NCBI RefSeq assembly: GCF_000024205.1
Contig: NC_013216.1
Location: forward strand, 3,534,001-3,598,000
Reading direction: 5' to 3'
Source: Desulfofarcimen acetoxidans DSM 771
GTDB lineage: Bacteria; Bacillota; Desulfotomaculia; Desulfotomaculales; Desulfofarciminaceae
Length of the DNA: 64,000 nucleotides
The position numbers were made by a program, and so were the translations under genes. Within the stretch, counting starts at the first letter, position 1. Every line of letters begins with the position of its first letter. A model generated the notes under the pieces. It was given only the letters and a program-made list of their open reading frames with translations. It was not told where the DNA came from and searched no databases. This document shows, piece by piece, positions 41,570 through 64,000 of the stretch.

Positions 41570-41656
41570 TATTTGCAGCCTGGCAATCATAGCCATATTT
41601 TATGACCTTAGATCCAAGGTTTTGCGTCACCATCTTTCGTATGGTTTTGCCCATTA
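41570..41656 (-). promoter_or_regulatory. Cyclic di-GMP-I (GEMM) riboswitch
   Basis: On the minus strand the class I GEMM core is readable: GGGCAAAACC, then a GAAA-type loop region (ACGAAAGATGG), GTGACGCAAAACC, and GGATCTAAGG, closing with ATGATTGCCAGGCTGC. These match the conserved GCAAACC, GACGCAAAGCC and GCCAGGNTGC elements. It lies upstream of a chemoreceptor gene and is followed by an intrinsic terminator, a transcriptional control layout. Confidence 0.9.
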
Positions 41657-41905
41657 GTTATTTTTTATTTTTTAGACATTATAGCACAAAATCCTTGTTT
41701 TACACATAAATATATATTTTTCAAAGATAAATCACTAAAGCGTTGGCCTTCCATCAACCTAGAAAATTAAACTAATCATGGTTAATTGCTTCCGATTTTG
41801 CCAATAAATCCCTCACAATCAATATGTGTTAAACGTATATCTACTGAATTCAGAGAGATACTAAGCAAGGAAAATATCAATATAACTCACGAAAGGAATG
41901 ATAAA

Positions 41906-52995: not shown

Positions 52996-55839
52996 ATGAA
53001 ATCAGTAATGGTAGTAGGTGCGGGTCTGGCAGGGACAAAAATTGCTATAGACCTGGCAGAAGTAGGATTCGAGGTATACCTGGTAGAGAAATCAGCTTCT
53101 ACCGGAGGAACTATGCAAAAGCTCGACAAAATGTTTCCTACTCACGATTGCTCACTATGTACTTTAGCACCGGATACAATGGATTTCGGCTGCAAATTAT
53201 CTTCTGTTAACAGTCACCCAAACATAAAAACCATCGTTAATGCCGAAATTCTTGACTTTGCCGGAATTCCTAATAATTTTGAAGTTACCATAAGAGGAAC
53301 ACTGCATACACCGGAAGAGCGGCCGGTTTCCTGCGATAAGGATTTTAATTTATCTGTTATCAAGATAAATATAGATTTTGTAATATTAAGCACGGGCTTT
53401 AAAACTACCGATCCATCAGAACAAAGCTATTACGGCTATGGTAAATACCCCAATGTGATCACGTCTCTGGAGTTTGAGGCACTGCTAAAAGAAGCTCGAA
53501 TTTTTCATACAAAAATCTTTAGACCGGGCGACCGGAAGAAGGTAGAGAAAATTGCCTGGCTGCAATGCGTGGGTTCCAGAAACGAAAGAATAGGAAGACC
53601 TTATTGTTCCTCTATTTGCTGTATGGTTGCAGTAAAAGAAGCGATAATGGCCAGGGAGATTTCCTCTGATACCAAGACTAACATTTTCCTGATGGACATA
53701 AGATCACATGGTAAAGGCTATCATGATTATCAACAAAAGGCGGAAAAGGATTTCCAGGTTGGCTTTATTTATTCCAGAATTTATGGCGTTTCTAAAGACC
53801 CCACCGGGAACTTAGTAATTCGTTATGCTACAGAAAACGGCAATATAATCACTGAAGATTTCGATCTGGTCGTATTATCTACCGGCATCGAACAACCGGA
53901 AGATATAAAAGATTTAGCCGAAAAATTTGGTATTATGCTGGATGAATATAATTTTGCTTTAACTCAGGCTTTCTCAGGAGTATGCAGCAGCAGGCCTGGT
54001 ATTTTTATTGCCGGAGCCTTTGCCGGTCCCATGGACATACAGGAAAGTCTTACCCTGGCATCAGCCTGCGTGGCGGAAATTATCTCAAGCAGCGGTATTA
54101 ATGAAAAACGTATCGGAAAAAAACCTTTCAATAATCATACCTCCAGGCAATTAGCTATCTCTGAAGAGCCAAACATCGGGGTATTCTTGTGCAGTTGCAA
54201 CAGCCGCCTGGACAATATTCTTGACTTCCCTAAGCTAACAGGGGAATTGAAGAATAATCAAGTCCACATATTTTCAGATTTATGTTCCTTATCAGGCAAA
54301 GAAGCCGCGCAAAAGATTATACTTCAGAAAAGGCTAAACAGAATCGTAATAGCCGCCTGCAGCAGTAAAATTAATTCTTCTATAATGAAAAAGTTAGTTG
54401 CCGAATGCGGCCTGTCCGAAAATATGCTGCAGATAGTAAATATACGGGAACAATGCGCCTGGGTACATATGGATAAACCGAAAAAAGCAACCTATAAAGC
54501 TCTCGAACAAATAAGAATGGCGGTTATTAAATTATCTTTGTCAACAGACTTTACCCAGCACACTTCACAAATAACACAAGAGGCTCTCATCGTTGGCGGC
54601 GGACTGGCCGGGCTAACCTCTGCTCTTTACCTGGCTAAACTCGGATGCAAAGTTCACCTGGTAGAAAAAACTGCCGCTCTGGGTGGATTAGCGGCACAAA
54701 CTATGCTTAGCAGCGATACAAATGATGAGAATATTTCCAAACATCTAAATCTACTGATTAATGAAACAACCGGTCGCTCTGAGGTAAATATATATCTAAA
54801 TACAGAGGTAAAAAGCTGTACCGGTTACGTCGGTAATTTCATATCCAGACTGTCTGACAGCACAGTGCTGAACCACGCAGTTACTATAATTGCTGCCGGG
54901 GGGCAAGAAGCGGGTCATAACAATGACGGTTCGGCAAAAGAATATTTATACGGCAAAAGCAAGCTTGTCTATACACAAATGGAGTTGGAAGCATTAATTT
55001 CGCTTAATGATCCGCTTTTAAACAAAGCAAGAAATATTGTGATGATTCAGTGCGTAGGTTCTCGCGAAAAAAGCTATAGGCATTACTGCAGCAGAATCTG
55101 CTGTACACAATCAATAAAACAGGCACTGCGGTTAAAAGAAAGAGATCCTCATAAAAATATCTTCATATTATATAGAGATATTACGACCTACGGAAGCCTG
55201 GAAAAGTATTATACAGAAGCGAGAAGCAAAGGAATTATCTTTATCAGGTATAATATTAACAACAAGCCGACTGCGGAAGAAATCTCGATTCCGAATAAAA
55301 AGTTTATTAAGATACTGGTGGATGACCATATATTGGGCAATACAATTGAATTGGAAACCGATATACTTTGCCTGGCCACCGGAATCGAAGCTTCACCGGA
55401 CAATCCCAAAATTGCCTCTGTATTTAATGTTTCTCTGGATGATAATAATTTTTTCAAAGAAAGACATATAAAATTAAAACCGGTTGATTTAAATAACGAC
55501 GGTATATTTGCCTGCGGACTGTCTCACGCTCCCAAATCCGCAGAGGAGACTATTACTCAGGCCAAAGCGGCGGTTGGAAGAGCCTGCACCATTCTATGCA
55601 AGGGGATTTTACAAGCACACAAAACGGTGGCTGTCAATACCGGTGACTGCGCCGCGTGTTTAACCTGCCTGCGCACCTGTCCTTACAGCGTACCCAAAAT
55701 CGTTGAGCACAAAGTATTCATCAATCCGGTTCAATGCAGGGGCTGCGGCATATGTACTTCTGAGTGCCCTCTAAACGCTCTTGAATTGCAAAATTTATCC
55801 AATGAGATCATGGATGCCATGATTGAAAGTTTGTTTTAG
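52996..55839 (+). CDS. Fused double HdrA-like FAD/iron-sulfur oxidoreductase
   Basis: 947 aa. It carries two HdrA-type FAD modules in one chain. The first has GAGLAGTKIAIDLAEVGFEV (residue 7 on) with HDCSLC (about 50), and LQCVGSRN/YCSSICC. A linker region (about 390-520) starts GVFLCSCNSRLD, like the N-terminal domain of HdrA. The second module has GGGLAGLTSALYLAKLGCKV (about 532), a second IQCVGSRE and YCSRICC. Two [4Fe-4S] ferredoxin motifs close the protein (CAACLTCLRTCPYS and CRGCGICTSECPLNA, about 885-930). HdrA-like proteins bifurcate electrons between ferredoxin and other carriers. No hdrB/hdrC, mvhD or qmo partner is adjacent. Confidence 0.85.
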   Translation: MKSVMVVGAGLAGTKIAIDLAEVGFEVYLVEKSASTGGTMQKLDKMFPTHDCSLCTLAPDTMDFGCKLSSVNSHPNIKTIVNAEILDFAGIPNNFEVTIRGTLHTPEERPVSCDKDFNLSVIKINIDFVILSTGFKTTDPSEQSYYGYGKYPNVITSLEFEALLKEARIFHTKIFRPGDRKKVEKIAWLQCVGSRNERIGRPYCSSICCMVAVKEAIMAREISSDTKTNIFLMDIRSHGKGYHDYQQKAEKDFQVGFIYSRIYGVSKDPTGNLVIRYATENGNIITEDFDLVVLSTGIEQPEDIKDLAEKFGIMLDEYNFALTQAFSGVCSSRPGIFIAGAFAGPMDIQESLTLASACVAEIISSSGINEKRIGKKPFNNHTSRQLAISEEPNIGVFLCSCNSRLDNILDFPKLTGELKNNQVHIFSDLCSLSGKEAAQKIILQKRLNRIVIAACSSKINSSIMKKLVAECGLSENMLQIVNIREQCAWVHMDKPKKATYKALEQIRMAVIKLSLSTDFTQHTSQITQEALIVGGGLAGLTSALYLAKLGCKVHLVEKTAALGGLAAQTMLSSDTNDENISKHLNLLINETTGRSEVNIYLNTEVKSCTGYVGNFISRLSDSTVLNHAVTIIAAGGQEAGHNNDGSAKEYLYGKSKLVYTQMELEALISLNDPLLNKARNIVMIQCVGSREKSYRHYCSRICCTQSIKQALRLKERDPHKNIFILYRDITTYGSLEKYYTEARSKGIIFIRYNINNKPTAEEISIPNKKFIKILVDDHILGNTIELETDILCLATGIEASPDNPKIASVFNVSLDDNNFFKERHIKLKPVDLNNDGIFACGLSHAPKSAEETITQAKAAVGRACTILCKGILQAHKTVAVNTGDCAACLTCLRTCPYSVPKIVEHKVFINPVQCRGCGICTSECPLNALELQNLSNEIMDAMIESLF

Positions 55840-55878
55840 GCAACCGACAATAGCCCGTCGATAAAATATAATTAACTG

Positions 55879-55925
55879 CTAAAGGCGACTGAAAAACCCT
55901 TAATACATTGGTTAACTGTCGCCTT
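55879..55925 (+). terminator. Inverted repeat downstream of the HdrA-like gene
   Basis: TAAAGGCGAC (55877 on) and GTCGCCTTA at the far side pair around about 28 bases. A plausible terminator; the loop is long. Confidence 0.45.
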
Positions 55926-56086
55926 ACTTATTGTTTTGAAAAGAAATACTGTTGTGCCGGGACAGTAAAACTGTTCAGCCCGGTAGTTTCCGGATAGGTT
56001 TTCAGGATGAGGCCTTCTGCAGGCACATCACAAGATGAATTGATTATGCTTGTACATACGCCAATTCACCATGAGGGGCGTATCCG

Positions 56087-56132
56087 TGAGGGTGCGGGTT
56101 CAAGTCCCTCCTCCGACACCAGAAAAATGAAA
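56087..56132 (+). tRNA. tRNA 3'-end fragment (leucine-type), possible attachment-site scar
   Basis: GTGAGGGTGCGGGTTCAAGT followed by CCCTCCTCCGACACCA has a T-arm with TTCAAGT loop, a 3' acceptor half CTCCGAC, discriminator A and CCA. The expected 5' half (GTCGGAG...) is not found in the 100 bp upstream, and the cloverleaf does not close there. It is therefore a 3' fragment, probably of a class II (Leu-like) tRNA. Such fragments are commonly left at one end of elements integrated into tRNA genes. Confidence 0.6.
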
Positions 56133-56216
56133 CCGAATGTTGATAAAATGTTCGGTTTTTTTATTTCTCCCGGTCAGTAGATAATGTTATACGATGCAAC
56201 TTACAGAAGCTGCCTT

Positions 56217-56945
56217 TTATCTACTTATTTCAACTCCAAAAAAATTCTTACTGTCTAATCTAACTTTATTGCTCTTATCATCAGTTAGTACAATTTCTTG
56301 AACGACACCACGTCCGGATACATTTTGAAGCTCTCTTCCACCAACAACATCATATCTATCTAGACTTAATGAGAAGGATTTAGTCTCATTACCTTCTAAC
56401 TGGAAAATTGCTCGCTTCCCATCAAAAGTGTAAAAACTAATCTCTTCAATTCTTTTTTCTCTATCAAAAGGATTATTAATACATAAATAAAAAGTCTTTT
56501 TTTCGTTACTATAGTTAGTTAGTTTAAATTTAGCTGTAAATTCAACTAACTTATTATCTTCGGATCTGTAATTTATACTGCTATCACTGGAGTTGTATCC
56601 TATTGACAATAGTCCTGCCGAATTACTTTTAACATGTTTCACAGTCACTCCCGTAATTGAAGAAAAAACTATCATTAATACTACAGAAATAAAAAATACG
56701 CTTCTTCCCCTAATATTAAAACGTTTTATAGCATATTTTTCTACTAGAAACAAACTTAGAATAAAAAGTACTCCAAAATATATTACTGTTAGATGTATAC
56801 CGCTATAATCACCCGTCCATGATTTTAATCCTATAAATTCTAACATATAATCACCTAAAGCATGGGTATATTTAGTTGTAAGCATCATATAAAAGGTCAC
56901 TGACATAAAGAATATTAAAAGTCCGCCTTTTACCTTATCATTCAC
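56217..56945 (-). CDS. Membrane protein with C-terminal beta-rich outer domain, unknown
   Basis: 242 aa. Three membrane segments (about residues 7-27, 48-66, 82-102) are followed by a beta-rich domain (about 115-242) with NKLVEFTAKFKLTNYSNEKK and EGNETKSFSLSLDRYDVVGG, which reads like an Ig-like or adhesion fold. AT-rich (codon use unlike the core genes). A 180-bp block directly upstream is duplicated in front of the small membrane gene at 62298. No family is recognised; probably part of the accessory region. Confidence 0.5.
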   Translation of the reverse strand: MNDKVKGGLLIFFMSVTFYMMLTTKYTHALGDYMLEFIGLKSWTGDYSGIHLTVIYFGVLFILSLFLVEKYAIKRFNIRGRSVFFISVVLMIVFSSITGVTVKHVKSNSAGLLSIGYNSSDSSINYRSEDNKLVEFTAKFKLTNYSNEKKTFYLCINNPFDREKRIEEISFYTFDGKRAIFQLEGNETKSFSLSLDRYDVVGGRELQNVSGRGVVQEIVLTDDKSNKVRLDSKNFFGVEISR

Positions 56946-56967
56946 AATAACTCCACCTTCTTTGTCA

Positions 56968-57150
56968 CATTTATCATCTAATGTTCATTATAATCTTGCT
57001 CCTTGTGCTGCTGCAATAAATTATATTTTACTTACATCAAAAACATATAACCGAAAAAGTAAACCTTTCTCCCCAAAATAAAAGGCTCACCAGACTAAGG
57101 GGCTGTTGACAAACTATGTTTTTATATAAAAAAGGTGGTTGAGAACCCAA
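56968..57150. repeat. Duplicated ~180-bp upstream block, copy 1
   Basis: CATTTATCATCTAATGTTCA to about 57150 aligns with 62536-62722 (CATTTATTATCTAATGTTCA...). Both copies include GTTGACAAACTATG and end at TGAGAACCCA. Each lies directly upstream (minus strand) of a small membrane-protein gene that shows no resemblance to the other. Confidence 0.75.
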
Positions 57151-57217
57151 GAAAATCAAGGATTTTCAGGCACCTTTTTCGTGAAAGATTGATCTTATGT
57201 CATTTGTCAACAGCCCC
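57099..57217. mobile_element. MITE-like element with 15-bp terminal inverted repeats
   Basis: GGGGCTGTTGACAAA (57099-57113) and TTTGTCAACAGCCCC (57203-57217) bound 119 bp with no ORF. The interior also folds (AAAAAGGTG...CACCTTTTT). The ends resemble those of IS elements that leave short non-autonomous copies. Copy 2 of the duplicated block has only the left end. Confidence 0.7.
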
Positions 57218-57279
57218 CAACCGGTTCATTTTCAATTACTCTTTTTATCGGCACCCCCTTTTTCCTGGGCAATAAAAAA

Positions 57280-57306
57280 CCTTGCTAAAATTGTCCTTTA
57301 GCAAGG
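57280..57306 (-). terminator. Terminator of the minus-strand small-peptide transcript
   Basis: CCTTGCTAAA and TTTAGCAAGG enclose 7 bases; the minus-strand RNA continues with UUUUUUAUU. It would end a transcript running from about 57655, through the 28-aa ORF and across the antisense RNA gene. Confidence 0.8.
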
Positions 57307-57358
57307 CTACATCCTCTCTCATTAGCAAAATTACTTCCATATATTTACACAAATATAC

Positions 57359-57388
57359 TTGACGAGCGTTTTTTATATGTGTTAATAT
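57359..57388 (+). promoter_or_regulatory. Sigma-A promoter for the convergent small RNA
   Basis: TTGACG (57359), 18 bases, TAATAT (57383-57388). The likely start is the G at about 57394. The same promoter-plus-5'-end sequence appears in inverted form upstream of the small peptide gene. Confidence 0.7.
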
Positions 57389-57392
57389 AAAT

Positions 57393-57429
57393 GGGAATAC
57401 TAATAACTAACAAAACGGCTCTGGTTGCC
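57393..57429 (+). repeat. Left arm of inverted promoter/5'-end repeat
   Basis: GGGAATACTAATAACTAACA AAACGGCTC... on the plus strand matches GGGAATACATAACTAAGCAA AACGGAGCC... on the minus strand (57655-57619). The two converging transcripts therefore start with nearly the same sequence. Confidence 0.8.
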
Positions 57430-57447
57430 TCGTCTACCGAGGTTTTC
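57394..57447 (+). ncRNA. Candidate antisense antitoxin RNA (~54 nt)
   Basis: It runs from the promoter at 57359 to an intrinsic terminator (CCTCG-TCTAC-CGAGG at 57428-57442, then TTTT). No ORF. It lies antisense to the 3' untranslated part of the small hydrophobic peptide mRNA, which seems to end only at 57280. This is the layout of type I toxin-antitoxin RNAs. Read-through to the second hairpin (57455-57484) would give a longer form. Expression is not known. Confidence 0.55.
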
Positions 57448-57454
57448 ATTTAGT

Positions 57455-57484
57455 CCCTTGAAACTGTTCCAGCAGTTTCAAGGG
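57455..57484. other. Strong hairpin between peptide ORF and antisense RNA
   Basis: CCCTTGAAACTG and its near-complement CAGTTTCAAGGG pair around 6 bases. It lies directly after the small-peptide stop codon and may stabilise the mRNA or act in RNA-RNA pairing. Confidence 0.7.
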
Positions 57485-57495
57485 CTTTCAATTAC

Positions 57496-57582
57496 TTACC
57501 TGCTATTAGTTAATTGAACAACGAGGGATAGTAGGATTAACACCGCTATAACGATCTGTATTGTATCGCTTATAGAGATCAT
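57496..57582 (-). CDS. 28-aa hydrophobic peptide, candidate type I toxin
   Basis: ATG 57582 follows AAAGGGGGTGGGG, a strong ribosome site, and the ORF ends at TAA 57496. The peptide is MISISDTIQIVIAVLILLSL followed by VVQLTNSR: one membrane helix with a short polar tail. Size and shape match holin-like/Fst-type toxin peptides. Stable hairpins follow, and a converging antisense RNA gene overlaps its 3' region. Family assignment by eye only; the layout is what makes it convincing. Confidence 0.65.
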   Translation of the reverse strand: MISISDTIQIVIAVLILLSLVVQLTNSR

Positions 57583-57618
57583 CCGCCCCACCCCCTTTCA
57601 GGATTTGTTTCATCCCCG

Positions 57619-57655
57619 GCAGGTGAGGCTCCGTTTTGCTTAGTTATGTATTCCC
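57619..57655 (-). promoter_or_regulatory. 5' end and inverted copy of the sRNA promoter region for the 28-aa peptide
   Basis: Read on the minus strand, GGGAATACATAACTAAGC is preceded by TAGAATAAAATGC (-10 region) and, about 16 bases earlier, TAAGGT (weak -35). The order of elements parallels the plus-strand promoter at 57359, so the two promoters are inverted duplicates. Confidence 0.6.
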
Positions 57656-57687
57656 GCATTTTATTCTACCACATTTTTCTGCTCACC

Positions 57688-57948
57688 TTACTTATTCCTT
57701 AAAATATCGTGGTGACCAATAGCATGAAGAATTAACGTATCGCTGTTGCGTTCAAAGATGATCCTAATATCCATGTTCACATAAGCTTCCCAAAAAGGAA
57801 CACCTTTAATACGGTGTATTTGTAGATATGGATGTTTAGGATTATTATTTAACAATCGTAAAGATTTTCTTGCCTGTTTCTGTTCGGATTGTGTTAAATT
57901 CCGGAAGTCGATTTCAAATGGTTTAGTTAGTATTATTGTCGGCATCAT
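57688..57948 (-). CDS. RelE/ParE-superfamily toxin
   Basis: About 86 aa from ATG 57948, after GGTGAAG; the open frame continues to 58017 but overlaps the antitoxin gene more than needed. It shows the compact RelE-like fold: TIILTKPFEIDFRNLTQSEQ, a helix-rich first part, then IHRIKGVPFWEAYVNMDIRIIFER and HAIGHHDILRNK at the end. Members cleave mRNA or inhibit gyrase. Which activity applies here is not readable. It overlaps the antitoxin gene by about 26 bases. Confidence 0.8.
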   Translation of the reverse strand: MMPTIILTKPFEIDFRNLTQSEQKQARKSLRLLNNNPKHPYLQIHRIKGVPFWEAYVNMDIRIIFERNSDTLILHAIGHHDILRNK

Positions 57949-58222
57949 CTTCACCAAGCTCTCTAAGTAAATCATCCATGTTGTTAAACGTCTTAATCTG
58001 TCCGTTTTGTAAAGCATCGGCGCTGCGCTTCATTTTTTCCTGCCATCTACTGGACCAGAAATATTCCTGGTTTTTGTCATGCCATGAAACAGGACGTATA
58101 AATATACCTCCATCCCGTTCTTCTAATAATACATAATCTCCTTCCTGAATATTTAATACTTTTGCAATTTGCGCCAGACTGATCAACATACGTTTTTGAA
58201 CTTGTTGAATTAATTCAGGCAT
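57923..58222 (-). CDS. AbrB-like antitoxin of the RelE-like pair
   Basis: 99 aa. The N-terminal half (MPELIQQVQKRMLISLAQIA to about 45: VLNIQEGDYVLLEERDGGIF) is a swapped-hairpin AbrB/SpoVT-type DNA-binding domain. The C-terminal half is charged and helical and would neutralise the toxin. It is upstream of the toxin gene and overlaps it, the standard order. ATG 58222 follows AGAGGGA. Confidence 0.8.
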   Translation of the reverse strand: MPELIQQVQKRMLISLAQIAKVLNIQEGDYVLLEERDGGIFIRPVSWHDKNQEYFWSSRWQEKMKRSADALQNGQIKTFNNMDDLLRELGEDDADNNTN

Positions 58223-58337
58223 TATTATCCCTCTTTCTTTTCTATGCTGTAATTACAGTTTAGCTGAATAATATACTACCGTCAAGAAGGCACTGTCAAT
58301 AAGTCAAAACTACTCCGATATTTACATTTTTCTACAT

Positions 58338-58494
58338 CTAACTCCCCTTTTTCTTCAAATCATACTCCAACAATGGAACCTTGTTTATCTTTTCGTTAAG
58401 CAATGCAACATCAGGAACGTTGTATTTCACCCATTCAATTGCCTCTTCAGCGGATGCGAAAACATCAAACACAAAACCGTCCAAGATGCTGTTT
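58338..58494 (-). pseudogene. 3' fragment of an unidentified gene
   Basis: The plausible part reads GFVFDVFASAEEAIEWVKYN then VPDVALLNEKINKVPLLEYD and LKKKGS, then stop. Upstream of about 58494 the frame enters the antisense of the next gene fragment, so the 5' part is missing. No family is recognised. Confidence 0.45.
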
Positions 58495-58884
58495 TTTGAG
58501 TTTACCGAGATGCTGAAAAACGGGCAGTATGTGAAGCGATGCAAGCTCTGTGGGCGGTATTTCGTGCTGGCCGATAAGCGCAAACGGGATTTCTGCGACA
58601 GACCATACAAGGGGAAGCGGACTTGCAAACAGGTAGGGGCAAAGCTGTTCTTCGAAAAAGGGATCGAGGTCGACACATTTCTACAGCGATATCTCACGGA
58701 GTACAATAAGGTTTACTCCCGCCGGTACCGGGCGGCGGGAAAGTACGCCGAGGAGCACAGCGGCAAGGATTTAACCGAGGAACAATTCAAGGCTTGGTCT
58801 GCCGCCGCCCGTCAGGCCCGGCGGGATTATGCGGAGGGCAATATTTCCGGCGATGAAATGCTGGCGAAAGTGCGATTGGATTGA
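58494..58884 (+). pseudogene. 3' fragment of a DUF6076-type gene
   Basis: About 130 aa: FTEMLKNGQYVKRCKLCGRY then FVLADKRKRDFCDRPYKGKR then TCKQ, with the Cys pairs CKLC and C..P...K.TC, and a charged helical end (SAAARQARRDYAEGNISGDE). This looks like the C-terminal part of DUF6076 proteins. The preceding 110 bp in this frame match nothing and overlap the neighbouring fragment, so the 5' end is lost. It is GC-rich compared with its surroundings, a sign of transfer. Confidence 0.6.
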
Positions 58885-58903
58885 AGACGAAAGGAGATAA
58901 GTG

Positions 58904-58912
58904 ATGAAACAA
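58904..58912 (+). pseudogene. First three codons of the response-regulator gene, cut by the IS200/IS605 element
   Basis: ATG AAA CAA follows AAAGGAG. The rest of the gene resumes in the same frame at 60664 after the element. See the response-regulator entry. Confidence 0.65.
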
Positions 58913-58992
58913 TTGACATTCTCCCCATGGCTAAAGCAAGGGGATTCCGAGGTCGAACCCCGAGGGCAGTACAATCACCTCTAAGCAGTCGC

Positions 58993-60315
58993 TTACGCCG
59001 CTGCCTTACTTTTCTTTTTCTGGACTACCAGTGGTTTCTTACGGGGTGTATTTAGAACCTGCACCCGGTAGGGATTTAAGAATATATCCTTATCCAGGAC
59101 GGAAAAATCCCCATCCGACCGGTACTTGCGGATGATATTCGCTGCACCGTTGATGTCGGCATGAATAACACAACCGTTTTTTGTTCGATACAACCCCCGC
59201 TTAATCCGTCTACCGCTGAAGGTATATTCATTTTTGTTCGCGGAATCGTACTCCGGCAAAAAATCCTTATCAAGGAAGCTGGCTTTACTGGTGTAGCTCT
59301 CCTCTACCTCAATATAGGTGATACCGTACTTATCACAGAGATTTTTCAGAATACGCCGGAACTTCCAGAGGGGGATTTGCACAAAGTTCTGGTTGTTAAC
59401 ATGGCCAATGTTGACTCCCTGCTTTTGTTCCTTATTTACACCTACTACCACGGTGCCAATCTCCAAGGAGATACTGAATTCCACAATATGTTTGGCAGCT
59501 TTCCGCAAGTAGTCGGTGATAAAATTTTCCCGGGATACGGCAAGGGCAGCCAGCTTGTGGGTTTCACTCTTAATGTTGTGCAGATCTTTAATAGACTGCA
59601 GCCTGGCTCTTTCTTTGTTATACCACTGGTTGGCGGCCTTGAGTTGCTTGCCGTCAATTAATAAGACATGCCCAGTGGTGGATGCACAGGCAGCCAGGTT
59701 ATCTACACCCAGATCTATACCCAGGATGCGATTGCTATCCAGGGAAGGCAGCACTACTGGCTTGTCACGGTAGATATACTCCACTTCAAAGAAGTGGGCC
59801 TTATGAGCCGGATTGATGCGTACCTCCCGAATACTGGTTTTATCTAATCGCTCGGGAAACGGAAACCGGATGTCCTTGGCCTCCGGGTGGTCTTTTTTGA
59901 ATACGTTTGATAACGGCAGCTGCAGGTACCCGGCATTTATGGTTATTGCGTTGGTTGACAGTACCAGTTGAAAGTAGCCGTCTTTTTTCAGGTAGCGTGG
60001 GATACGGACTTTCTCTGCCGGGTACTGGCCTTTAGCTGCTAACCTTTTCAATCCGAGAAAGCTTTTGAAACTTTGGGTAGCTACCCGGATGATCTGCTGG
60101 GAAACACCGGCCTGCAGCATCTTAAAGTTTTCGTTGGTTTTGCACAGGGCACAGTTTTTGGCGTAGCTTAGAAGCTTGCCGGTGACAAAGTAGTGCTGCC
60201 GTATGTTGTACAATGCCACATTGTACAGGTTTTTGGCATACCGGCAGAGGTTTTGCAGTAGAGCATATTGCTCTTTAGTTAGATGTTTAATACGGTTCTT
60301 TTGGGTTGCAAACAT
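58993..60315 (-). CDS. tnpB: TnpB, IS605-type RNA-guided nuclease
   Basis: 440 aa, normal length. RuvC-type active site: D201 in LGIDLGVDNLAAC, E339 in VEESYTSKASF and D387 in HADINGAANII, all in place. The N-terminal half has the usual helical and beta modules (ATQKNRIKHLTKEQYALL). The zinc knuckle (two CxxC pairs) seen in many TnpB proteins is missing between residues 345 and 385; instead the chain reads FSGRRIKRGLYRT, as in one known TnpB subgroup. It should cleave DNA next to a target-adjacent motif using an omega-RNA from the right end. Confidence 0.95.
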   Translation of the reverse strand: MFATQKNRIKHLTKEQYALLQNLCRYAKNLYNVALYNIRQHYFVTGKLLSYAKNCALCKTNENFKMLQAGVSQQIIRVATQSFKSFLGLKRLAAKGQYPAEKVRIPRYLKKDGYFQLVLSTNAITINAGYLQLPLSNVFKKDHPEAKDIRFPFPERLDKTSIREVRINPAHKAHFFEVEYIYRDKPVVLPSLDSNRILGIDLGVDNLAACASTTGHVLLIDGKQLKAANQWYNKERARLQSIKDLHNIKSETHKLAALAVSRENFITDYLRKAAKHIVEFSISLEIGTVVVGVNKEQKQGVNIGHVNNQNFVQIPLWKFRRILKNLCDKYGITYIEVEESYTSKASFLDKDFLPEYDSANKNEYTFSGRRIKRGLYRTKNGCVIHADINGAANIIRKYRSDGDFSVLDKDIFLNPYRVQVLNTPRKKPLVVQKKKSKAAA

Positions 60316-60352
60316 TTGGTTTCACCTCCCCTCTATGTAGAGATTTAGTGTC

Positions 60353-60556
60353 TTATACTTTCTTTTGGTTCTCAATGTACTGTTTAATAATTTCTAACTC
60401 CAGGATTTCTGATTGATGTTCGCTGCAAATCTGATATATCAACTCCTTTAGTCGAACATCTACACCTTGGGTTAGCACTTCACGACGATATTTAGGACAC
60501 CATACTACATGATATTTGCATGAGTACACTACATTGTTGTTGGATTTATATTCCAT
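60353..60556 (-). pseudogene. tnpA: Internally deleted TnpA (IS200-type Y1 transposase)
   Basis: 67 codons from ATG 60556. The N-terminal part (MEYKSNNNVVYSCKYHVVWC then PKYRREVLTQGVDVRLKELI) is typical of IS200/IS605 TnpA, and the last residues IIKQYIENQKKV carry the catalytic-Tyr helix. Everything between, including the HUH metal motif (HVHLL) and dimer core, is missing: about 60-70 residues. The frame is kept, so it looks like a clean in-frame deletion and the protein cannot be active. Confidence 0.85.
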
Positions 60557-60663
60557 GATATTATTATACAACATAAAGTTATATAACTAAATAGCAAGAT
60601 TGCATAATTATCGGGCTTCGCCCGATGGCCCTTATATCCCCATGGCTAAAGCCAGGGGCTTTA

Positions 60664-61095
60664 CGGGCCGTCCCGGTAATCATTGTCGAAGATGATCACA
60701 ATCTGAACCAAGGTTTGTGCCTTGCTTTAAAAGATCAGGACCTTCAGATTGTTCCGTGTTTTGATTTAAAATCCGCCCGTGAACAGCTTGCTGATAGCGC
60801 GGCGGATTTGGTTTTGCTCGATATCAATCTTCCCGATGGCAACGGGTTGGAGTTGCTTCACAAAATTAAAACCGGGAGTGAACCTATTCCGGTGATTCTT
60901 TTAACTGCCAATGATACCGAGATGGACGTGGTCATGGGTTTGGAGCACGGTGCGGACGATTATATCACAAAGCCTTTTAGCCTGACGATCCTGCGCGCGC
61001 GAGTAAAGGCCCAGCTGCGCCGTGACTTGGCCCGTGTGTCCAAACCGTCTGTCATTGACGAGAAATATCTGGCCTGTCTTCGTGAGCAGGTGTAG
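60664..61095 (+). pseudogene. Response-regulator receiver domain, split by the IS element and truncated
   Basis: Reads VPVIIVEDDHNLNQGLCLAL with the acidic pair in VEDD, phospho-acceptor D in LVLLDINLPDG and the conserved Lys in YITKPFSL. This is an OmpR/VanR-type receiver of about 125 aa. The DNA-binding domain that should follow is absent; the frame ends at TAG 61095. Joined to the ATG AAA CAA at 58904-58912 it starts MKQRAVPVIIVEDD. GC content is higher than in the neighbours. Confidence 0.75.
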
Positions 61096-61124
61096 ACAGC
61101 CTTCCAAGAGAGGGTAACGTCACT

Positions 61125-61331
61125 TTGGGTAAATTCCGCACGCTCGTCGAGGAAGTATCCCAAAAATATGCGGGTATCGAATTTGTTTATGGCAAAGAAA
61201 AGCGGAAATCGGCGGAACAGCGCGAACTGGAGAAACTTCAGGAATGGCTTATCCGATGGGAAGGTTATGAAAAACAGCTGGTCATCATGGGAAAAGGCCG
61301 CAACAGTTATTCGCGGACAGACCAGGTTTAA
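61125..61331 (+). pseudogene. IS1182-type transposase internal fragment
   Basis: GKFRTLVEEVSQKYAGIEFV then YGKEKRKSAEQRELEKLQEW then LIRWEGYEKQLVIMGKGRNS and YSRTDQV. The NSYSRTD (normally NSYSKTDPDATF) is the characteristic site of IS1182-family DDE transposases. It is cut off both upstream (after the truncated regulator) and right after TD. Confidence 0.6.
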
Positions 61332-61839
61332 CCGTCAAATATTTATCCAAAGCTAATCCCAGTCTAGACCATCCAAGCTCTTTAACTTGCTTTAAAGGCC
61401 AACCTGCCTCACGCAAATCCTTAACTAACTCTATTAAGGCGGCCTTATCTTCAGAGTTAACAATTCCTTTGGTAATCAATATTCGCTTAGCCGACGGGAT
61501 ATAGTTTTGTTGAAGACGAAAAGATAATTCACCCAATTTAGAACCAACTTGTGATGGTGTTCCACTAGTAAGTCCAACCATTAGCTCAGCAGTTTGAGAC
61601 CATTGTTTTGCCTCAAGAATCTGTCCGTAAACAATTGTTTTGAAAGCAGGATCCTCCCAGTTAATTTTTGGATCACTTATTATTCCTACCAGTGCGTTTA
61701 ATCCACCTATAGTTAAATTTGAGAATGATGTTAGCCTATCAAGTGCAATATCCTCCCTATTCTTAATTTGAAGACATAACCAAATACCAGATACCATGGT
61801 AATTATAAGTAGCATCAATGATATAATTTTTGTTCTCAT
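61285..61839 (-). CDS. Membrane-anchored hypothetical protein, 3' end replaced
   Basis: 184 codons. N-terminal membrane segment (residues 5-24, KIISLMLLIITMVSGIWLCL), then a helical extracytoplasmic part (LGELSFRLQQNYIPSAKRIL). The last about 16 codons (TVKPGLSANNCCGLFP) run antisense into the IS1182-type fragment, so the natural C-terminus is lost near 61333. ATG 61839 is 4 bases after the stop of the 53-aa gene upstream; the two form an operon. No family is recognised. Confidence 0.5.
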   Translation of the reverse strand: MRTKIISLMLLIITMVSGIWLCLQIKNREDIALDRLTSFSNLTIGGLNALVGIISDPKINWEDPAFKTIVYGQILEAKQWSQTAELMVGLTSGTPSQVGSKLGELSFRLQQNYIPSAKRILITKGIVNSEDKAALIELVKDLREAGWPLKQVKELGWSRLGLALDKYLTVKPGLSANNCCGLFP

Positions 61840-61843
61840 TTTG

Positions 61844-62005
61844 TTATGCCTTTCTGAATCTATTTCTTCTTATTAGCCCCCATAAATCCTGAAGTATGTT
61901 ATATATGCCTATACAATTACCCACATAGCTTGCTGCTTTCATCAAAATTCCGATTAATATTATGTTCATAAAAAAGAATACGATGGTCTTAAGTATGCTA
62001 TCCAT
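61844..62005 (-). CDS. 53-aa small membrane protein
   Basis: ATG 62005 after AAGGAGC, stop at 61844. The peptide reads MDSILKTIVFFFMNIILIGI then LMKAASYVGNCIGIYNILQD then LWGLIRRNRFRKA: one long hydrophobic segment and a basic tail. No family is recognised. Good ribosome site and close coupling to the next gene suggest it is translated. Confidence 0.55.
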   Translation of the reverse strand: MDSILKTIVFFFMNIILIGILMKAASYVGNCIGIYNILQDLWGLIRRNRFRKA

Positions 62006-62089
62006 AATACGCTCCTTTACTTCAAACTATTTTTACAGGAAAATATCCTTTTTAAGGTTACTGTGCAAATATTCTATAGACTGAGCCTA

Positions 62090-62208
62090 AGAGAGTGTTT
62101 CAAAAATCATAATTTTAAAAATTAACCACTATATATAGTTAAAATTAGAAGTATAAATAGTAGATATGGAAATCAAGAGATAAAAAATCTATTTTTGAAA
62201 CGGTCTCT
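62090..62208. mobile_element. MITE-like element with ~18-bp inverted ends
   Basis: AGAGAGTGTTTCAAAAAT (62090-62107) and ATTTTTGAAACGGTCTCT (62191-62208) bound 119 bp of AT-rich sequence without an ORF. The outer ends are imperfect. Short, non-coding and with inverted ends, it is a typical non-autonomous IS derivative. Confidence 0.6.
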
Positions 62209-62297
62209 AGAGGCAGACTCTAATCCTAGTCTTGCTTAGAATAGATGATATAAATTATATTTTTGTTTCTATGTATTGAAAATAGAGTCACCTAATA

Positions 62298-62501
62298 CTA
62301 AAGTAATTTATTATGGCGGTAAAAAATATATATTGGTATAATCAAAGGGCAGAAAAACATCCATGCTAAAGTAGCAGGTATCGACAATTTAGTAATTTTT
62401 CGATCTGTCCATATAAACCATGCTGCAAATATTCCTATTCCAAAATACATTATTAAAGAAATCATTTCAGTTAAATTGCTAATGAAATTGATTACATTCA
62501 T
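62298..62501 (-). CDS. 67-aa membrane protein
   Basis: Two membrane segments (about residues 13-31 and 40-60), start MNVINFISNLTEMISLIMYF, end IFYRHNKLL. Ribosome site AAGGAG. Duplicated 180-bp block upstream, shared with the gene at 56217. No recognised family. Confidence 0.5.
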   Translation of the reverse strand: MNVINFISNLTEMISLIMYFGIGIFAAWFIWTDRKITKLSIPATLAWMFFCPLIIPIYIFYRHNKLL

Positions 62502-62535
62502 AAAATAAAATTACTCCTTAAAAGGTTTTTATGCT

Positions 62536-62722
62536 CATTTATTATCTAATGTTCATTATAACCTTGCTTTTCCGCTGTTGCAATAAATTAACATGATTTG
62601 CAACAAAAATATTTTACCGAAAGAGTAAACCTTTTCACCAAAAATAAACAACAAGGCCGCCAGCCAAAGGACCAGTTGACAAACTATGCTTCTATACAAA
62701 AAAGGGGATTGAGAACCCAGCG
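62536..62722. repeat. Duplicated ~180-bp upstream block, copy 2 (with truncated MITE left end)
   Basis: Matches 56968-57150. It contains AGTTGACAAACTATG, corresponding to the left terminal repeat of the MITE at 57099, but the right end is absent; the match stops near GAGAACCCAGCG. Confidence 0.7.
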
Positions 62723-62754
62723 AGCCTTTTGTTTTCTCCCCATATAAACTGGTT

Positions 62755-63135
62755 TCAAACCGCTTCCCTGTAATAATTCTCCGATAAATTCATAAATGGC
62801 GTATTCCATACAATATCTACATCCAGCTTCGGCCTATTGTACTCACCGATTTCATCTGTTTCCCTTATGACTATATTATCAATCAGCAAGCTAATATTCG
62901 TATTTGTAAGGGCTTTCTTATGAATAATTTCTTTCAGTACATCTATACTTTTAATAATATTTTCCTTCTCATATTCGTTCGACTCCTCAAGCTTCTCCAA
63001 TTCGGAAAGCTATTCTTCAAATTTGGCCAGTTCCCTATTTGCATCGCCTGATAGCTCCAGGAACAATTTCTCATTGATAAAGCCCTGGGCCAACTGCTTT
63101 GAGTATCCCTTAATTTCTTCTTCCTCTTTATGTTA
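62755..63135 (-). pseudogene. C-terminal relic of a large serine recombinase
   Basis: The last 81 codons (MEKLEESNEYEKENIIKSID then VLKEIIHKKALTNTNISLLI then DNIVIRET) resemble the end of TnpX/Tn4451-type serine recombinases. Upstream the frame continues as EEEEIKGYSKQLAQGFINEK then LFLELSGDANRELAKFEE but is broken by a TAG before LSELEK. The catalytic N-terminal domain is absent. Non-functional. Confidence 0.6.
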
Positions 63136-63246
63136 CCTTTGGCATAGCATTCCCGTAATGGTTGTAAATGAAGTTGAATAAATAAAAAATTCCTGGTATA
63201 AAAGAAGGTGCCAACCAAATCTCAAATACCAGGAGGTAAAACCGAT

Positions 63247-64000
63247 ATGAAAAAACTTGTGATAGACCCTAAATACCTTGTAGTAGGCATCGACATTACC
63301 AAATCAATACATTGGGTGCAGTGCATAGATCCATTTGGTAATAAGTTGGGTAAACCTTTTGCCTTTCAGAATAACAGAGAAGGTTTCAAAAATCTAGTAC
63401 TAAGGATTAATGAGTGTTCAAAAAATCATGGTTTTGAGAAAGTGGTATTCGGTATGGAACCTACAGACCACTACGGAAAGGCACTTGTTGAATATCTGGT
63501 AGACCTGGAACATACTTTTGTTCTTGTTAATCCTATGCACGTCAAAAAAAGCAAGGAGTTTAACGATAACAGTCCCAGTAAAAATGACCGCAAAGATGCA
63601 TATACAATTGGAATGCTAACCGAAGTTTCGATTTTCCAGCTCAAAAATAGCAAAAAAATAAAATTCTGATCTCGTATTTACTGGGCTCAAAGGTTCAAAA
63701 ATGGCCAAAAATGCAAAAGTAGTGACCCAAATAAATTTCCATGGAATCTAATTCCATTTACTAGATATCATTACTTTGATAGACTTTATATGGGAAAAAT
63801 ATGTGCATTTCATGGAGATATTCTACTAAATATAACCATAATTCAAAAGGACTGGTTTAGCAGAGTATCTACAAAGCATTCCCGGAGTGGGAGAAATCAC
63901 AGGAGCAATGTTTCTAGCAGAAATCGGTGATCCAACAAATTATCATAACTGGTGTGAAATTCAAAAACTGGCCGGCCTAAATATTCGGGAAAATGATTCT
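63247..64000 (+). pseudogene. Degenerate IS110-family transposase, continuing past the window
   Basis: ATG 63247 after AGGAGG. The N-terminal DEDD domain is readable: VVGIDITKSIHWVQCIDPFG, then MEPTDHYG and NDRKDAYTIGMLTE, ending prematurely at about 63669. After about 180 bp of uninterpretable sequence the C-terminal part resumes at about 63850: QSIPGVGEITGAMFLAEIGD, then NYHNWCEIQKLAGLNIRE. A broken copy. Confidence 0.8.

Follow-up and report, generated by a model that had tools for sequence, protein, structure and literature searches.

A displaced 3' fragment of tRNA-Leu(GAG) as the probable relic of an island attachment site

The 64,000-nucleotide stretch of DNA considered here (the window, positions 3534001-3598000 of the single-contig, 4545624-base genome of Desulfofarcimen acetoxidans DSM 771) contains, at 56072-56121 on the + strand, the 3' part of a tRNA-Leu(GAG) gene recognized by its match to the intact gene. 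This fragment is probably a relic attachment (att) site, ectopic and decayed, of a family of tyrosine-integrase islands that targets the anticodon loop of that tRNA. In the most likely reading, an island of the type called E3/E4 below decayed at an ectopic place, and the fragment is its tRNA-side end.

The tRNA-derived stretch is 50 nt long: it starts at T33 of the anticodon loop, takes in the variable arm, the T arm, and the 3' strand of the acceptor, and ends with CCA; the 5' half of the tRNA is absent at 56072-56121. It is identical to the intact tRNA-Leu(GAG) of the genome in 48 of 50 bases, with 2 mismatches, a match far beyond chance in a search of the genome sequence (E = 1.1e-18). Compared with the intact tRNA-Leu(GAG) of a relative, G030, whose gene is the closest among the 29 relative loci examined, there is 1 mismatch in 50, and both differences from the host tRNA are also present in the G030 gene; these two bases may point to a foreign origin, or to chance decay. 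The first-pass annotation had described a T arm, acceptor half, and CCA without a 5' half at 56030-56132: the fragment is real and has all of these, as well as the anticodon loop and variable arm, within narrower limits. An intact tRNA at that place, the objection then foreseen, is excluded because neither ARAGORN nor Rfam shows one: ARAGORN finds no tRNA in the whole window, and Rfam finds no tRNA family at the fragment at the gathering score and none at E<=10 in 55830-56260. The low scorers of that Rfam search (trpB, patAB, SNORD73, C0465, and tmRNA, the last matching 13 nt of the T loop with 8 bits) fall below gathering and were taken as chance. The fragment pattern gave 0 matches in viral contigs.

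How was this half-tRNA cut? The left junction lies at 56071-56072, where tRNA homology starts at TGAGGGG (base counts by eye), inside the anticodon loop. Three other fragments of the genome, at 2686683, 2692677, and 2713732, start at the same point, and a fourth starts 8 bases earlier; in relatives the start is earlier by 1 base in G001, 2 in G020, 5 in G026, and 1 in G030 (all by eye). Such a pattern of crossover positions is as expected of a tyrosine integrase. The anticodon loop is a class of crossover subsite named in passages of PMC4383910, and the homology of the window fragment begins at this known subsite. A 7-bp inverted repeat (ATACGCC-14-GGCGTAT, 56056-56083) spans the junction, and its arms are possible candidates for core-type sites of the integrase.

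Downstream of the fragment, at 56130-56162 on the + strand, lies a terminator-like hairpin with a T run, identified by homology and also present as a hairpin in the predicted fold. Its homologs stand 3' of the fragments at 2686683 and 2692677, and a tRNA-less copy is found near 2715282. Fragment and terminator together match the junction at 2692672 with 89% identity over 102 columns (E 4e-31) and that at 2686678 with 87% over 102 columns (E 2.6e-29); the alignment to the intact gene stops six bases past CCA. Because the E3/E4 junction matches run through the terminator, the window copy belongs with those island ends, and its nearest kin in this genome are the starts of islands E3 and E4 rather than the tRNA gene as it now stands. 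Past the terminator the homology is not convincing, given that shuffles score as high in 29 of 500 cases for E3, 325 of 500 for E4, and 15 of 500 for E6. To the left of 56072, the genome holds no other copy of the sequence beyond the crossover bases and weak matches (E>=0.5).

The intact tRNA-Leu(GAG) lies at 2598366-2598448, in the same replicon and on the same strand as the fragment, 0.99 Mb away; it is the only one found by a sequence search and an RF00005 search in which 150 of 254 first-look candidates were scored. The first-pass annotation had suggested that an intact tRNA with the same 3' end be sought at the other boundary of the island, and that finding none in the genome would speak against an att site. 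Such a gene exists, which disposes of the second concern, but it is 0.99 Mb off and is not the other boundary of this island. The genes before it are polA, mutM, coaE, and a lytic transglycosylase (slt-like) gene. The coaE- and slt-like genes also precede the intact gene in G001 and G026, and in G030 it is preceded by the slt-like gene plus one more. All of these are by-eye readings of ORF translations, as are moeA, hemZ, prkA, the "molybdenum genes", and the other gene types given here without a Pfam call.

Beside the intact gene is an 82-kb ICE-like element (genome 2598448-2680457, L092-L096), for which Pfam matches can be given for 7 of 9 proteins. Directly past the tRNA comes a tyrosine integrase at 2598569-2599576 (PF00589, 132 bits), with a second one in opposite orientation, and the element also encodes ParB, a ParA-like ATPase, a T4SS coupling protein, and a T2SSE-type ATPase. 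Sequence search then reveals four further 3' fragments, at 2680457, 2686683, 2692677, and 2713732, so that the array extends over 115 kb; in 49 bases these have 0, 1, 1, and 0 mismatches, respectively. The segments between them are 6.2, 5.9, and 21.0 kb long, their GC content is 34-38%, and they have no PF00589 match in a search in which all 35 candidates were scored. Segments E2-E4 have att-type ends; of the window island, one end has been found. On its sequence, the array is the picture of tandem accretion, an ICE followed by integrase-less islands. An intact gene and a 3' fragment bounding one island within 200 kb, together with an integrase, occur at the array (2598-2714 kb); the window fragment is too far from the gene for such a pairing, and no integrase was found for its element (PF00589, 3079-3849 kb).

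This tRNA is, as far as sequence comparison tells, a recurrent target in the order. With window 55600-57300 as query, matches were obtained in 35 of 40 genomes (own genome included), some of them exclusively outside the tRNA piece. Among 29 relative loci, 23 have an intact tRNA-Leu(GAG), 4 a 3' piece without the 5' half, and 2 neither. Intact gene and fragment lie on one contig 11.8 kb apart in G001, 16.7 kb in G030, and 3.6 kb in G026, with a relative of the ICE integrase just past the tRNA (45%, 47%, and 40% identity, respectively). Left of the fragments 2686683, 2692677, and 2713732 stands the motif CGAAGTAACGCGACCATGAGGGG or a close variant, taken here as the putative right end (P arm) of one subfamily. 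At <=3 mismatches it is found in 4 of 113 genomes of the order (3 times in the own genome, 2 in G097, and once each in G100 and G101), and a reversed control pattern in 0 of 113. A related exact pattern retrieved one record of genome_contigs, a collection that may leave out records of the window's own genome: Pelotomaculum propionicicum, by position the G101 place. The ICE and the elements of G001, G020, G026, and G030 have different right ends. As a separate observation, the right-end motif and a tRNA 3' fragment stand in G097 (L194:6582-6956) ∼300 bp ahead of another tRNA-Leu(GAG), the second, which looks degenerate and has a differing 3' end and yet is called by ARAGORN.

On the right of the scar, an accessory region begins at 56217, continues to the end of the window at 64000, and goes on to about 3629 kb (right edge by eye, from the ORF list). 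It contains an unknown protein that matches no Pfam family, a MazE-like/YafQ-like pair (24.8 bits, just above the cut-off, and 21.2 bits, under the curated cut-off), TnpB, a response-regulator piece, a DUF4368 piece like those in E2/E3, and an IS110-type transposase piece. The 8 kb to the right had been presented as AT-rich and laden with IS and toxin-antitoxin genes; IS and TA-like genes are indeed there, and the GC content is 38.8% (56122-64000) vs 43.1% for 1-56070, a value equal to three digits to the minimum of 97 same-length windows on the left, but "AT-rich" applies in part, since 58-61 kb has 43-47%. The DUF4368 pieces lie at window 62755-63000, L096:12573-12914, and L096:19186-19569 (22.3, 20.1, and 25.7 bits; cut-off 25); in DNA those of the window island, E2, and E3 are about 89% identical, and they are likely C-terminal remnants of large serine recombinases. 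The IS605-type TnpB (OrfB_IS605, with a Cas12f1-like TNB domain) occupies window 58993-60574, beside an apparent truncated TnpA piece (by eye). No IS-like ORF was recognized adjoining the junction, and the nearest repeat found, 1 kb away on the right (window 57099-57217), is MITE-like and 119 bp long; its terminal inverted repeats (GGGGCTGTTGACAAA/TTTGTCAACAGCCCC) are perfect over 15 bp, and similar copies lie at genome 3608763, 2924352, and 2950034. The search for PF00589 came up empty from 3079 to 3849 kb, and in 3510-3650 kb the 24-base right-end motif has 3 matches, each with 8 mismatches and without a tRNA piece; nothing closer occurs there apart from the short core at the scar itself. 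The island looks like a relic because neither a PF00589 integrase nor a far-end motif was found.

On the left, the last gene before the junction encodes an HdrA-like FAD/Fe-S protein (52996-55839, + strand). The moeA-hemZ-like gene order left of the scar is kept in G001. In that genome the HdrA-like gene is not adjacent to the hemZ-like gene, which is followed by a dehydrogenase-like gene; the latter had no match in the present genome, in a search run without a positive control. ARAGORN calls no tRNA in the 56 kb left of the scar, and no empty site was found among the 40 genomes, the nearest of which belongs to another genus. The same side carries a c-di-GMP-I riboswitch (window 41571-41661, - strand, 69.7 bits in Rfam).

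Where, then, did the element lie? In the usual geometry, the intact tRNA, the island, and the 3' fragment follow each other on the same strand, so that a + fragment places the element on the left. A left element is disfavored because of the moeA-hemZ-like synteny there, while an island on the right is favored by the IS, TA-like, and DUF4368 pieces and the lower GC on that side, together with the core-like synteny on the left. The sequences point toward the fragment being the tRNA-side end carried by the right-hand island itself, because fragment and terminator are homologous to the starts of E3/E4. The element may also have been on the left of the scar, since the ACCA left of the crossover occurs in the E3/E4 right ends as well. 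As for the first-pass annotation, which saw in the fragment the att scar of an element in the 8 kb to the right, the 3' scar of a leucine-tRNA-targeting element holds, the intact gene as a boundary of this island does not, and the right-hand position would fit if the fragment is the element's own end.

In the preferred reading, the integrase would exchange strands in the anticodon loop, and the island would carry the tRNA 3' end and terminator as its left end, rebuilding the gene upon integration. One island, or the tandem junction of two, would have come between the hemZ/HdrA-like and the molybdenum-cofactor-like genes. There, ∼1 Mb from the tRNA gene, this end would have been left as a useless half-tRNA, and integrase and far end would have been lost by decay. 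Integration at a secondary site ranks somewhat above the relocation of a finished junction.

That relocation is rather unlikely, but it carries some weight: a junction of two accreted islands would have been moved en bloc from the tRNA-Leu array, leaving element DNA on both sides. The bases left of the crossover, ACCATGAGGGG, recur in E4 and at the Pelotomaculum junction L179, and E3 shares ACCATGA with this place; fragment and terminator resemble the array junctions; and the HdrA-like gene, which would here be element DNA, does not come after the hemZ-like gene in G001. The 30 nt upstream score 11.5 against seven right-end motifs, and five unrelated right ends score between -1.5 and 1.5, but true members of the motif score 30-40 against each other and 437 of 20000 random genomic 30-mers reach 11.5, so that a right-end motif left of the scar was set aside as weak. 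The left edge, moreover, has the genomic matches described above and nothing stronger.

A further scenario is doubtful, and starts from the islands themselves: integrase-poor islands with a ∼20-nt right end, CGAAGTAACGC[CG]ACCATGAGGGGCG, would use integrases of the tRNA-Leu(GAG) type and land repeatedly off-tRNA, the window scar being one such landing. As part of the same scenario, the islands would carry the tRNA 3' half and terminator as their left end. The junction in G100 looks alike, as it adjoins prkA-like and core-like genes (by eye), and no tRNA was found on its 29.9-kb contig.

Could the gene itself have been here? A second tRNA-Leu(GAG) might have received an element that was later deleted together with the intact half, so that the 3' scar and the original terminator stayed. 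The orientation and position of the fragment fit a classical right-hand scar with the element formerly on the left, but the coaE/slt-like home of the gene looks conserved elsewhere (here, G001, and G026; partly G030), the genome has no second intact copy, and the genes on the left are core-like, which makes such a history very improbable. It is hard to credit that a chromosomal inversion carried off one array fragment, as passages of PMC9897764 report for Thermococcus, where a tRNA fragment lies on the other strand at a distance of about 179 kb: here the junction is in the anticodon loop, where the family's other fragments break too, and a single inversion is insufficient because fragment and gene share a strand. 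Finally, a functional small RNA or tRNA-derived regulator instead of a scar can practically be dismissed, for although a 241-nt region has a better fold than its shuffled versions (z -3.5; equalled by 2 of 200), the T stem has a C/T mismatch (GCGGG/CCCTC), the acceptor 5' strand is missing, no Rfam family is above threshold, and the terminator hairpin and GC-rich arms may account for much of the fold.

The relic att site in the window implies that tRNA 3' scars can occur elsewhere than at the border of an island delimited by the intact gene, and that methods pairing fragments and tRNAs within 200 kb would miss it. If ectopic landing is what took place, tRNA-targeted islands would have a route of escape to sites where they are fixed.

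Among the matches listed for the literature on this tRNA as a target in these bacteria and for tRNA fragments at secondary sites, the locus is absent, and comparison is with related systems. The tDNA islands of the Islander type, in the passages of PMC4383910 that describe them, share the same-strand 3' fragment, the anticodon-loop crossover, and the tyrosine integrase beside the intact gene. The difference is that the window fragment lies 0.99 Mb away, and because this exceeds the 200-kb limit, the Islander filter would not pair fragment and gene. ICESt1-type ICE-CIME arrays are similar in having an integrase-bearing ICE-like element by the gene and then att-bounded segments without PF00589, a CIME being defined in an excerpt of PMC5704250 as keeping attL and attR but lacking genes for integration and transfer; here, however, one att copy is outside the array, and the segments are known from sequence. 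The ssrA islands of Dehalococcoides are likewise stacked, many of them integrase-less, with a short conserved motif upstream of 3' direct repeats (parts of PMC3146451), but they combine a serine recombinase with a tmRNA target, in place of the tyrosine integrase and tRNA-Leu(GAG) of the present case. Polypartite symbiosis ICEs, as portrayed in sections of PMC9174649, are also split, portions of a single element lying far apart on the chromosome, although neither a second integrase nor a partner site is shown here. Overall, the locus is of a known kind, that of tRNA-targeted islands with ICE-CIME-like accretion, and is unusual only in its ectopic place.
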